Below are positions 5,326 through 26,512 of a stretch of DNA of 64,000 nucleotides, in pieces. Within the stretch, counting starts at the first letter, position 1; every line of letters starts with the position of its first letter. Position numbers and translations under genes: made by a program. This DNA comes from Micromonospora tarensis. GTDB taxonomy: Bacteria; Actinomycetota; Actinomycetes; Mycobacteriales; Micromonosporaceae. The notes below the pieces were generated by a model, which was given only the letters and a program-made list of their open reading frames with translations, was not told where the DNA came from and searched no databases. The stretch spans positions 1-64,000 of the forward strand of contig NZ_JAEVHL010000003.1 in NCBI RefSeq assembly GCF_016803395.1. The letters run 5' to 3'.

Positions 5326-6266
5326 TCAGTGCGGCGCGGCCGGCCCCAGGTCACTGGGGTCGGTGTTACCGCCACAGACGATCACCGCCACCCGCTCCCC
5401 CGACTGCGGCAGGTACGCGCCACCGACCAACGCGGCCAGCGCGGCCGCGCCACCCAGCTCGGCGGCGACCCGCAGCTCCGACCAGAGCAGCCGGCGGGCC
5501 CGCACCAGGTCCTCGTCCCGGACCAGCACGGAGACCACTTCCGTCCGGCGGGCGGTGTCGAAGGCGATCTCGCCGATGCGTCGGGCACCCAGCGAGTCGG
5601 TGGCGATGCCGCCCACCTCGATGTCGACCGGCCGGCGGCCTTGAGCGCCGAATGCAGGGTGGGGATCTGCTCGGGCTCGACCGCGACGACGCGGACCGAC
5701 CCATTGAACCAACTGGCGATGCCGGAGACCAGCCCGCCGCCACCAACCGCCACCAGCACCGTGTCGATGCCGTCCACCTGCCGTTCCAGCTCCCGGCCCA
5801 CGGTGCCCTGACCGGCCACCACCTCCGGCTGGTCGTACGCGTGCACGACCAGCGCGCCGGTCTCCGCCGCCCGCTGGCTGCTCGCGGCCAGGGCCTCCGC
5901 GTAGTGCTGGCCCACCTGGCGCACCTGTGCGCCCAGCCCCGCCAACCGCTGCACCTTCACCGGCGAGGCGGTGACCGGCACGAAGACCTCCGCCGGAACT
6001 CCCAGCGACCGGGCCGCGTACGCGACGGCGAGGCCGTGGTTACCGCCCGAGGCGGCGATCACCCCGGCCGACGGCAACGACCCCTGGAGCATCCGGTTGA
6101 ACGCGCCTCGCGGCTTGAACGACCCGGTGTGCTGGTGCAGTTCCAGCTTGAGGCTGAGCTGACCGGGCACGCCGAGGTCGGCGCCGTCCACGGCGATCAC
6201 CGGGGTTTCCCGGACCCGCCCCTCGACACGTGCCGCGGCCGCCTCGACGTCGCTTCTGTCCACCAT
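5326..6266 (-). CDS. PLP-dependent threonine/serine dehydratase, frameshifted as sequenced
   Basis: This is a fold-type II PLP enzyme that deaminates threonine or serine to the 2-oxo acid plus ammonia. The PLP lysine lies in HTGSFKPRGAFNRM, the Asn loop is ASGGNHG, and the glycine-rich phosphate-binding loop is VAVGGGGLVSGIA. There is no ACT domain, so it is the short catabolic or specialised form. The frame breaks near 5636: one missing C on the + strand separates LHSALKA from GRPVDIEVGGIATDSLG. With one base restored the gene has 314 codons and ends in LGPAAPH at 5326. The ATG at 6266 is chosen over an upstream ATG because GAAGGG precedes it. It follows the 2OG oxygenase stop by 16 bp, so the two are likely co-transcribed. 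Confidence 0.85.
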
Positions 6267-6282
6267 GGGGAAACGCCCTTCG

Positions 6283-7082
6283 CTACGACCAGAGGGCCAG
6301 TCGACCGTCGTCGGTGAGCCCGACAAAACATCCTATGGAGATCCGTCGGCCATCCGTCGCGGGACGCACCGTGTGATAGTGCCGAGGATCGAACAGAAAG
6401 CCCTCGCCGAGGGTCGGGCGCAGCGTCAACGACTGCGCGCCGGCGGTCACCGACTCGTCGAAGCCGTACCCGTTGGGAATGCGCAGCTCCTCGTCGTTCG
6501 GCTGCCAACGCCGCCGCCACAGCACGGTCTCGCCACCGACCGGTGCACCCGGATGTAGATGTTGAACGCCAACTGCGCCACCACCTCGCCGTCGAGCAGC
6601 CGACCCGCGTACTCCCGGACCGCGTCGTCGAAGTGCACCTGAAGACCGGCGTTGATCTCGCGGACGATGCCGACGTGCATGTCCCGAGACTGTCGCCGCC
6701 CCGGTGCGACGTCCGGCCAGGCGGCCCGGAACGCGGCCAGGCACAGCTTCCGTGGCGAATCCGCCAGGCCCAGCGTGGACCAGCCCTTCTCGGCCGCGTG
6801 GGCGGCGTCCCAGTAGTCCTCGCGGAGTTCACCGGCCCCCCGGTGGTCGTTGATGGCCGGGCCGAACTTGGCGACGACCGGAAAGACCCGGCTCTCGTCG
6901 TAGCGGTCCATCGGCGCGTCGGCGAGAGCGGCGGTGATGGCCTGGCAGCGGGCCGCGGACAGCAGCCCCGGCACCCGGACGGCGGCCAGTCGCCCCGCGA
7001 TGAGCCCGGCGACATCCGCGCGGATGATCGAATCGGATTCGACGACGACGAACAACGGATCGGTCCTACTCGAATGCTGCAC
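6283..7082 (-). CDS. 2OG-Fe(II) oxygenase superfamily protein, frameshifted as sequenced
   Basis: This is a non-haem iron, 2-oxoglutarate-dependent dioxygenase-like fold of about 266 residues. The iron ligands appear as HFDD (H-x-D) and a distal His in RHYHTVRPATDGRRISIG, whose Arg would bind 2-oxoglutarate. Members hydroxylate amino acids, peptidyl residues or small molecules. The break is after base 6545: FNIYIRV continues as PVGGETVLWRRRWQPNDEEL only if one base is added, giving 267 codons. The GTG start at 7080-7082 is preceded by a strong GGGAGGA six bases upstream. It is the first gene of a two-gene unit with the PLP dehydratase, suggesting linked amino-acid chemistry. The substrate is unknown. 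Confidence 0.8.
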
Positions 7083-7339
7083 GGCGGTCCTCCCGTAACG
7101 AAGATCCCTCACCGGACATGTCGCGCCCCCCGACCCGCGCACCGTGCAATGTACCGAGCGTCGGCAAGACGGCTTTTCCTCAGTTCCGGGCGGAGTGGTG
7201 CGAGCGCCGCTACCATCGGCCCAACCGGGATAGCCGACACCGAACCGTACGGCAGGGAATTTCCACCGATCGGGGAATGGTGACGATTCCCGGCGTGACG
7301 CATGATGCGACTAGTTCGAACGCGGACGAGGAGTTCGAT

Positions 7340-7525
7340 ATGGCTGGCGCCGGCCCAACCGATCTTGACTTGCATGTCGACCGCCTGGAGATTGCGCGTC
7401 GAATCGCTCGGGAAATGATCGAGTCGGACCACGAGGCACTGGAGCTCGCCGTTCGGCAGCGCCCACAGTGCTGGTCCCGACGCCCGGCCGGCCACGGCAC
7501 CCGGGCCGACGCCACAGCCTACTGA
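7340..7525 (+). CDS. possible small protein, 61 aa
   Basis: An ATG at 7340 is preceded by GAGGAG (7329-7334) at good spacing. The first 40 residues form a charged amphipathic stretch (RLEIARRIAREMIESDHEAL) that would make one long helix; the tail is Arg/Gly/Ala-rich and less convincing. Third-codon GC is lower than in neighbouring genes. It diverges from the oxygenase gene. It may be a short regulatory protein, a precursor peptide, or the 5' remnant of a longer decayed gene. No family is recognised. Confidence 0.35.
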   Translation: MAGAGPTDLDLHVDRLEIARRIAREMIESDHEALELAVRQRPQCWSRRPAGHGTRADATAY

Positions 7526-7650
7526 CCCGAAGGCTCCGCAGCGCTGCCACGCCTCACTACCGGCCTCGTCAACCGGCCCAGATCCGCTGCACGGTCGAGC
7601 GGAGGCGGAGTCCGGGCGGCGCTCCGACAGGACTGCCCGCCATGTCGTGT

Positions 7651-7700
7651 TGAGCGGCATACCTCAGAGGCATAAATATGACTCTGAGGTATGCCGCTCA
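7651..7700. repeat. perfect 19-bp inverted repeat with AT-rich 12-nt centre
   Basis: TGAGCGGCATACCTCAGAG (7651-7669) is repeated exactly in inverted orientation at 7682-7700. The spacer GCATAAATATGA is strikingly AT-rich for this genome. The element sits 34 bp beyond the end of the truncated SRPBCC reading frame. It could be a solo MITE-type mobile remnant, a recombination or integration site, or a large operator. There is no U tract to suggest a terminator. Confidence 0.7.
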
Positions 7701-7734
7701 CGACCGCATCCACCCCGGTTGAGGTGACTCACGG

Positions 7735-7797
7735 TCACCTCGGCCGCCGGCTGCGCCGGCAACCCGAGCGGATCACCGTCGTAGCTGCTTGCGTCAT
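7735..7797 (-). pseudogene. truncated SRPBCC (AHSA1-like) gene remnant
   Basis: An ATG overlaps the ArsR stop (ATGA), the arrangement usual for ArsR/SRPBCC pairs. The first residues MTQAATTVIRS match how AHSA1-like SRPBCC proteins begin. After about 11 codons homology is lost, and the frame stops at codon 21. The rest of the 140-160-residue gene is missing, with a perfect inverted repeat just beyond. This call rests on position and a very short match. Confidence 0.45.
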
Positions 7798-8114
7798 GAA
7801 CTCTCCTCGGCCTCGTCAACGATGTCCTGATAACCGTTCAGGGCACGACGCCAGAAGGTGTCGAGCTGGTCCCGCAGGGCGCTCAACCCCACCGGACTCA
7901 GCCGGTAGACCCGGCGGGTGCCCACCGCCTGGTCGACGACCAGGCCGGCGCCCTTGAGCACCTTGAGGTGCTGCGACACGGCCGGTCGACTGATCGGCAG
8001 CTCGTCCGCCAACTCCCCCACGGCACAGGGCCGCTCGGCCAGCCGCTGAACGATGGCGAGCCGGCTGGGATCGCCGAGCGCCTCCCAGCCCGGGTGCGCT
8101 CCGTAAGTCACCAC
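7794..8114 (-). CDS. ArsR-family winged-helix repressor
   Basis: This is a 106-residue winged-helix regulator of the SdpR/YgaV-like, non-metal ArsR group. The recognition helix region is ELPISRPAVSQHLKVLKGAGLV, followed by a wing with GTRRVYRLS. No CxC metal-binding motif is present. The C-terminal LDTFWRRALNGYQDIVDEAE helix is typical of ArsR proteins paired with SRPBCC genes. The start is GTG at 8112-8114, with no Shine-Dalgarno sequence. A TAGCTT -10 box ends 6 nt upstream, so the mRNA is probably leaderless, and a GTAAG/CTTAC dyad overlaps that box, which predicts autorepression. Its expected partner gene downstream is truncated. Confidence 0.88.
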   Translation of the reverse strand: MVTYGAHPGWEALGDPSRLAIVQRLAERPCAVGELADELPISRPAVSQHLKVLKGAGLVVDQAVGTRRVYRLSPVGLSALRDQLDTFWRRALNGYQDIVDEAEESS

Positions 8115-8118
8115 GAAC

Positions 8119-8134
8119 GTAAGCTACGACTTAC
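8119..8134 (-). promoter_or_regulatory. ArsR autoregulatory operator overlapping a leaderless promoter
   Basis: GTAAG-CTACGA-CTTAC is a perfect 5-bp dyad with a 6-bp spacer. On the minus strand it contains the -10-like TAGCTT, and six bases later the GTG start of the ArsR gene. A bound dimer would block RNA polymerase directly. Confidence 0.55.
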
Positions 8135-8207
8135 CGATGGTCGTCAAGCCGCCCCCCTCGGGCGGAATGGCCTTGGTGGTGTCGATCTTGTGTGTGAGGC
8201 TTCGGCG

Positions 8208-8490
8208 GTGACTGATCTCGGCATCCGCGCAGCCACCCCGGCTGACTCCGAATTCCTTGTCGACATGCTCGTGGAGGCGGTTAACTGGCTGCCTGAGCGC
8301 GACTGGTCGCGCGCGGAGATCCTGGCGAATCGCGAGCTGGCGCACTACGTCACCGGTTGGATGCGGCCGACCGACTTCGGCTTCATAGCCGTGGACCCGG
8401 CCGATTGACCGATCGGCGCGGCCTGGTTCCGATACCTGACCATTCGAGGACGCGGACACGATGGTCGCCGACATCGGAACCTGACCTCGC
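8208..8490 (+). pseudogene. broken GNAT acetyltransferase (N-terminal part)
   Basis: A GTG at 8208 opens a reading frame that starts like a GNAT domain (GIRAATPADSEFLVDMLVEA ... FGFIAVDPAD) but stops at 8406-8408. Reading through the TGA, the same frame continues with PIGAAWFRYLT, the expected next strand, so CGA to TGA is the likely lesion. Beyond about 8445 homology fades, and the acetyl-CoA-binding R/QxxGxG/A motif is absent. The gene is dead by a nonsense change plus a 3' truncation. Confidence 0.6.
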
Positions 8491-8512
8491 CGCTGTCACG
8501 GCTCGGAGGCTC

Positions 8513-26472: not shown

Positions 26473-26512
26473 GGATGTAGTGGCCTCATGCGACCAGGAG
26501 GCCACTACATCC
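26473..26512. terminator. bidirectional terminator between nuclease and MerR genes
   Basis: GGATGTAGTGGCCTC (26473-26487) pairs perfectly with GAGGCCACTACATCC (26498-26512); the loop is 10 nt and TTGTTT follows on the + strand. The flanking genes converge here. Confidence 0.8.

Follow-up and report, generated by a model that had tools for sequence, protein, structure and literature searches.

The stretch of DNA analysed here, which we call the window, comprises 64,000 nucleotides of Micromonospora tarensis (contig NZ_JAEVHL010000003.1, positions 1 to 64,000) and carries at 7651-7700 a palindrome composed of a left arm (7651-7669, plus strand, TGAGCGGCATACCTCAGAG), an AT-rich 12-bp loop (7670-7681, no strand assigned, GCATAAATATGA) and a right arm (7682-7700, plus strand) which is the exact reverse complement of the left one. 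An earlier note, made from the letters alone, had claimed a perfect 19-bp inverted repeat with an AT-rich core, and its coordinates, arms and loop were all reproduced: the 19-bp arms are without a mismatch, and when mismatches are allowed they grow to 33 nt at 85% pairing (7642-7674 / 7677-7709). A scan of the window (13-base seed, minimum of 17 bases, up to 60 bp between the arms) gave four inverted repeats, this one being the longest. By a rough calculation by hand for 72% GC, the expected number of perfect 19-bp pairs with a short spacer is far below 0.01 per 64 kb; the recurrence of the palindrome across the genome is a stronger argument against chance than this per-window estimate. The RNA fold of 7620-7760 has -82.1 kcal/mol, shuffled sequences averaging -49.4 (z -8.7; none of 200 shuffles was as low), and both strands of the region fold far better than shuffles (z -8.7 and -6.5). 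The 13-base inner arm, at up to three mismatches, gave eight matches in the window against a shuffle mean of 10.0, and as it is no commoner than in shuffles a single copy of the palindrome is recognised here. Another strong hairpin is found at 26473-26512 (GGATGTAGTGGCCTCATG / CAGGAGGCCACTACATCC, 94% complementary over 18 bp). No Rfam family reached its gathering score at 7000-8500, where the sole matches were two sub-threshold microRNA families with 26.9 and 23.2 bits against gathering scores of 90 and 84, far enough below for a known RNA family to be rejected. Between 7400 and 8200 no terminator-like site was found and no T tract follows the palindrome stem, on which basis an intrinsic terminator with a T tract was rejected; a promoter scan of the same interval, limited to the sigma-70-like type, found none.

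Past the palindrome lie a second small hairpin (GAGGTGAC-TCACG-GTCACCTC; 7721-7741, plus strand, from sequence and RNA fold) and, on the minus strand, a gene remnant of about 10-12 codons (7762-7797, MTQAATTVIRSG) and an ArsR-family regulator gene (7794-8114), the palindrome being placed about 90 bp past the stop codon of the latter. In all six relatives examined the arsR stop overlaps the ATG of an SRPBCC-like gene, and the protein of the one relative tested (locus L463) matches Pfam AHSA1 at 2.7e-9, a family which we take to be of the SRPBCC type. The suggestion that the palindrome stands beside a truncated SRPBCC gene is borne out, since the whole gene follows arsR in the six relatives and only 10-12 codons are left in the window. 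On the other side a 38-bp stretch (7592-7629, no strand assigned) is repeated in several relatives, with 35 of its 38 bases equal in L050; judged from that locus, where it lies beside GCGCCTGTTTCATAAGGG, it probably marks one end of a different insertion sequence. Five genomes (G029, G034, G024, G002, and G004) have the left flank conserved up to about 7500-7530 with no arsR part after it, and the site is read as a patch worn by insertions plus a deletion. Further to the left, on the minus strand, are a threonine-dehydratase-like reading frame (5326-6326, named by eye) and a next gene (6283-7142) with a weak WelO5-like match below the cut-off; both continue in a second frame, representing either gene frameshifts or draft errors.

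In the host genome a 16-base arm with up to three mismatches matched 103 times, against 34 times for a reversed control pattern, and a covariance model of the palindrome built from 25 copies gave 75 matches at 38 places. The model matched in 78 of 121 genomes of the genus and gave none in the other 43 (E 0.01), and in the family it matched in 85 of 300 genomes, belonging to nine of 44 genera (E 0.001); both samples include the host genome and were run with stricter filters, and their match counts per genome are lower bounds. The exact inner palindrome pattern was also run over the genomes of named species, possibly excluding the window's own record, and returned 96 stretches, all 96 of which are in Micromonospora. 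A literature search, mostly without subscription papers and thus weak evidence of absence, gave no report on these Micromonospora repeats.

Comparison of copies at different places in M. arborensis and its relatives revealed a common stretch of about 240 bp, a mini-transposon (MITE) carrying no genes, which in its intact form reads in the order CTAG, terminal repeat ACGAGTAAGTCCTAAC, left body, palindrome of 48-50 bp, right body, inverted terminal repeat, CTAG. The terminal repeats of this MITE are CTAGACGAGTAAGTCCTAAC on the left and, inverted, GTTAGGACTTACTCGTCTAG at the right end, and in the right body is a second small hairpin, seen in the window at 7721-7741 and in many other copies as GGTGACCGACGGTCACC. 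Copies that retain terminal repeats have them outside the palindrome, with about 97 bp as the commonest distance; one was found within 260 bp of 42 out of 149 palindrome rows, which are rows not reduced to one per distinct copy, against seven out of 273 control windows, and was absent within that distance from the other 107 rows. The proposal of a MITE was broadly right as far as a dispersed family linked to mobile elements is concerned, and the genome-wide search suggested for it did yield dispersed copies in the host genome and, in relatives, CTAG at both ends of MITE copies; what did not hold is the idea of a solo pair of mobile-element ends, as the palindrome is the centre of the element and the window copy has lost both terminal repeats. 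Full copies with CTAG at both ends are those of L299, L351, and L315. In L299 the element measures 240 bp between the outer CTAGs (491-730), predicted genes end at 494 and begin at 766, and it is short and without a transposase gene, as is expected of a MITE. This copy had no match in plasmid or phage collections, and spread of the MITE by either was rejected. Two inverted end-like repeats 2.2 kb apart in L347 are explained by an internally deleted MITE with ordinary genes next to it. Several MITE copies of genome G314 show runs of N at the position of the palindrome, being either assembly gaps or stretches not displayed, and in L056 (1480-1560, genome G031) there is a different hairpin, GGTGTGGTCACTCACGGTCACCACACC, resembling the second small hairpin of the MITE body.

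The target of the MITE was addressed at 55 distinct terminal-repeat sites, a set which includes the L364 stretch that was later set aside: 39 begin with CTAG and 16 do not. At 30 of the 39 the neighbouring gene is predicted to stop at this TAG, 24 of the 55 sites coincide with no predicted stop codon, and as a background CTAG closes 43 of the 524 genes predicted in the named loci, those adjacent to a MITE being counted in. This pattern suggests CTAG as the insertion target of the MITE, in many cases with its TAG serving as the stop codon of a gene, and because target and stop codon so often coincide it would land at gene ends without breaking genes. The single comparison of filled and empty sites with a simple CTAG target is that of L316, which carries the MITE where L202 and L192 hold one CTAG stop codon; in L316 itself the CTAG on the right reads CTCAG. 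The L299 element is absent at the aligned site of three relatives; the neighbouring sequence differs too, so this is no clean empty site, and three further loci are listed with presence and absence of the same kind.

The window copy covers the palindrome and part of both body halves, from about 7633 to 7757 on the plus strand. Its MITE-body score was 129, the highest of 87 control windows being 94, and the host copies on contigs C14 and C11 match it over query positions 34-158 and 49-158. Homology to the MITE ends at about 7633 and 7757, and no CTAGACGAGTAAG-like terminal repeat was found at 7401-7950 with up to four substitutions; with both repeats missing and the homology ending where it does, this copy is classed as a relic and not as an intact MITE. 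Since the terminal repeats are lost and the right part runs directly into the first SRPBCC-like codons, cut off beside the MITE body, the insertion was followed by a deletion. We consider it probable that a non-autonomous MITE, now decayed and once moved by a transposase of the IS982 family, had the palindrome as its hairpin core.

The evidence for this mover comes from a parent-like unit of 985 bp in genome G130 (L435, 4971-5955) with the ends CTAGACGAGTGAGTCCTAAC and CTAGACGAGTAAGTCCGAAG and a single ORF of 297 aa. The ORF matches Pfam DDE_Tnp_1 and DDE_Tnp_1_3 and, with 186.8 bits against a cut-off of 130, the NCBIfam IS982 family NF033520; the MITE end CTAGACGAGTAAGTCCTAAC and the element end CTAGACGAGTGAGTCCTAAC are equal at 19 of 20 positions, and at family level the MITE has terminal inverted repeats in common with an IS982 element. 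Six IS982 elements of Streptomyces carry the CTAGACGAGT-type repeat at both ends (n = 3), at one end (n = 2) or at neither (n = 1); among these plasmid elements the CTAGACGAGTCATTCCGA ends are perfect in L436 and L440, L441 likewise shows two ends, one of them with CTGG, L438 and L437 have one end each, and L439 has neither. From the ends in common we infer that an IS982-family transposase would once have mobilised the MITE, carrying the palindrome as its core. The feature in the window differs from members of the IS982 family in being without a transposase and without terminal repeats. Other candidates for the mover were dropped. A DDE_Tnp_1 transposase fragment on host contig C380 (L363/L364) had been considered as the autonomous partner: a CTAGACGAGTAAG stretch ends beside it, but that stretch also occurs in a G143 locus without the transposase, and no such end pair was found in the scanned loci of relatives of this transposase (L365-L393 and a smaller set). 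IS701/DDE_5 elements, for which a 4-bp target is the rule, had no matching ends in the six tested; the IS982 element of G130 was found beside one element of this type. An IS982-derived MITE of about 240 bp, MITECca01, is on record from Cardinium cOegib (PMC9769881), and the Micromonospora MITE agrees with it in size, in having no transposase, in its ends common to an IS982-family element and in its lineage-specific spread. The inverted repeats at the ends of MITECca01 are palindromic, and, unlike what is seen in Micromonospora, the excerpted text of that paper mentions no central 48-bp palindrome, no CTAG or stop-codon placement and no use by a second IS (PMC9769881).

The position of the copies relative to genes was determined with a self-trained codon-usage gene finder rather than curated annotation. 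Among 36 host copies, covering all of the 38 places except the two weakest, 20 lie between convergent genes and 11 between tandem genes, none are between divergent genes or within predicted genes, and five at contig edges could not be classified. Of the 96 named loci 80 were put to the same test, of which ten were at edges and two had no flanking gene; the 68 classifiable ones comprise 37 convergent, 24 tandem, and seven divergent placements and again none within predicted genes. The corresponding numbers for control gaps of at least 100 bp in the named loci (n = 239) are 48, 113, and 78. The distance between palindrome and stop codon in the named loci is broad (16-538 bp). With no copy within a predicted gene (0/36 in the host, 0/68 in the named loci) and with arms that pair, the palindrome is an extragenic stem-loop as REP elements are.

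Many copies stand without the transposon body. In the host 16 of 36 copies, that of the window among them, exceed the 97th percentile of controls for similarity to the MITE body and 14 exceed every control (the 39 rows scored include three second matches to the pattern within loci already listed), which leaves about 20 of 36 without it. All 20 copies of genomes G035 and G020 are naked, having no MITE body and no flanks in common by eye; weak matches to a 10-base end-like motif at up to two mismatches occur near five of the 20, at no constant distance, and are taken as chance. Thirteen of these 20 could be classified, as eight convergent, four tandem, and one divergent. The many copies lacking a body indicate that the palindrome is older than the MITE or independent of it. 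The two arms change jointly: across 72 distinct 48-mers Watson-Crick pairs make up 87%, the shuffles, which leave kinship between copies in place, giving 77% and at most 79.5%, and double changes number 126; AT.CCT and the inner AT hardly vary. Palindromes at orthologous sites have a mean identity of 0.90 against 0.72 in the 40-bp flanks and 0.60 for random sequence, over 101 locus pairs which are not independent, a given copy often being represented by more than one locus; several pairs have flanks no more alike than random sequence although both palindromes pair (L110/L444, flanks 0.55 and 0.60, random 0.60). That the arms are kept paired points to selection or to a correction process which maintains the hairpin. 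The type of arm follows the genome: all 20 copies from G035 and G020 have GATACC, which occurs in the host on one arm of one of the 36 copies. The likeness of naked palindromes was 0.854 within genomes against 0.75 between them with a body filter that was too loose, and 0.65 against 0.64 with a stricter one whose pattern admitted false copies.

The loop serves as a landing site for a second, ISL3-family element. At four host contig ends the same IS end, beginning with GGGTCTT, lies within the palindrome loop, and two further host contig ends carry the same ISL3-type end. Good matches to this end numbered 37 in eight genomes, and of 24 junctions examined 19 adjoin a half-palindrome that agrees with the consensus at 21-22 of 22 positions, three match 18-19 (L251, L223, and L236), and two are near background (L241 with 12 and L246 with nine; 99% of the 22-mers in the window score 11 or less), the junctions of L242 and L251 being scored by eye. 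ISL3 elements as a rule produce an 8-bp target duplication, and of ten insertions with both ends in view eight have identical ATAWWTAT on both sides, three of the left sides being read by eye, the exceptions being L240 and L250. It is the corresponding 8-mer of the loop at 7670-7681 that is duplicated in these other copies. The transposase of the loop-inserted element of G077 (L225) matches Pfam PF01610 at 1.2e-71 and NF033550 with 284.3 bits against a cut-off of 180; the host copies are known from the IS ends at contig ends. The end was detected in 13 of the 121 genus genomes, in five of them weakly (E 6e-6 to 2e-4). Host contigs at L013, L018, L024, and L029 end inside the ISL3-type element, which makes the IS-filled palindromes break points of the draft genome. 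The palindrome had also been proposed as a recombinase site, which is correct insofar as the loop is a target for the ISL3-family transposase, and in no other sense.

Several explanations other than a MITE relic have to be weighed. The palindrome may primarily be a functional, bidirectional hairpin at gene ends, which stops transcription or protects mRNA 3' ends, is kept by selection and was picked up and copied by the MITE; we see this as a serious possibility which falls somewhat short of even chances. The placement of copies at gene ends, the joint changes of the two arms and the pairing of orthologous palindromes between intergenic flanks of near random identity (L110/L444) argue for it. 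The stem of the window copy, however, lacks a U-tract and any terminator-like site at 7400-8200, the distances to stop codons are broad, the conservation of sequence (AT.CCT...AG) exceeds what a terminator needs, and 43 of 121 genus genomes are without a match at the threshold used. The pairing test is weakened by shuffles which leave kinship in place, and template-switch correction of imperfect palindromes could also yield paired changes. The naked copies, the genome-typical arms and the patchy presence in the genus would equally suit a REP-like selfish hairpin which is moved by its own hairpin-recognising enzyme and for which the IS982-type MITE was a later vehicle, as would its use as an IS target, which REPs also are (PMC1525189). 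We regard this as rather unlikely. Y1_Tnp, the enzyme family of REPs, had no match in the host genome, which is 95.6% complete, and was present in 29 of 121 genus genomes, so mobility driven by a RAYT was rejected; no other candidate enzyme was found, and the persistence of some copies at orthologous sites looks vertical rather than mobile.

Two further explanations are far less probable. That the ISL3 element makes the palindromes, for instance as excision scars, would account for the junctions abutting half-palindromes (19/24), but two junctions have no palindrome, 8-bp duplications do not produce 19-bp arms, and palindromes occur in many more genus genomes (78/121) than the IS end does (13/121); this origin is very improbable and was rejected. 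Least probable of all, by a small step, is the large operator for a regulator such as the neighbouring arsR that the earlier note had entertained: the palindromic form, the AT-rich centre and the vicinity of arsR would fit, but in place of a single conserved upstream site there are 38 dispersed places in the host genome, mostly between convergent genes or in tandem gaps, and the window copy lies downstream of arsR and not in front of it, with no promoter at 7400-8200 in a scan limited to the sigma-70-like type. This too was rejected. The reading as the core of an IS982-moved MITE has points against it as well, namely that the window copy lacks both terminal repeats, that the parent element at hand is that of G130, that 16 of 55 end sites do not start with CTAG and 24 are off any predicted stop codon, that a simple CTAG target is seen in orthologues at one locus, with CTCAG as the right copy, that the L299 site is not clean, and that about 20 of 36 host copies and all 20 of G035 and G020 have no MITE body.

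REP elements offer the closest comparison to the palindrome itself. They are targets of IS1397, ISKpn1, IS621, ISPpu9, and ISPpu10, and are known as targets for five IS families (PMC1525189); the Micromonospora palindrome is like these REP/PU elements in being extragenic and in serving some IS as an insertion target. It differs in being a near-perfect palindrome of 48 bp whose host has no Y1_Tnp match. REP elements usually have more than 100 copies per genome (PMC2817692), whereas the palindrome is found at 38 places, and the IS in its loop belongs to ISL3, a name absent from the main text of PMC1525189. We describe the feature as an IS982-type MITE whose core is a REP-like hairpin that doubles as an ISL3 landing site. 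The most likely description overall is that of a REP-like hairpin at gene 3' ends which was spread in part by the IS982-type MITE. That it acts there, on the transcript end or on stability, is suggested tentatively by its placement and pairing. More speculative, and somewhat more doubtful than such an action, is the view that the Micromonosporaceae own a class of extragenic hairpins, 48-bp palindromes close to perfect in which symmetric bases are fixed and the arms co-vary. Such hairpins would be maintained at orthologous gene ends, with a type characteristic of the genome, would need a hairpin-recognising factor other than a RAYT and would be exploited both by the IS982-type MITE, which carries it to stop codons, and by the ISL3 element, which lands in its loop.

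This work accounts for a repeat family in an antibiotic-producing genus and offers a natural example in which one hairpin is used by two transposons unrelated to each other. A CTAG target which is often a stop codon would give the MITE a simple route to spread without gene disruption and, if the hairpins are functional, they would be ready-made 3'-end parts for Micromonospora genetics.
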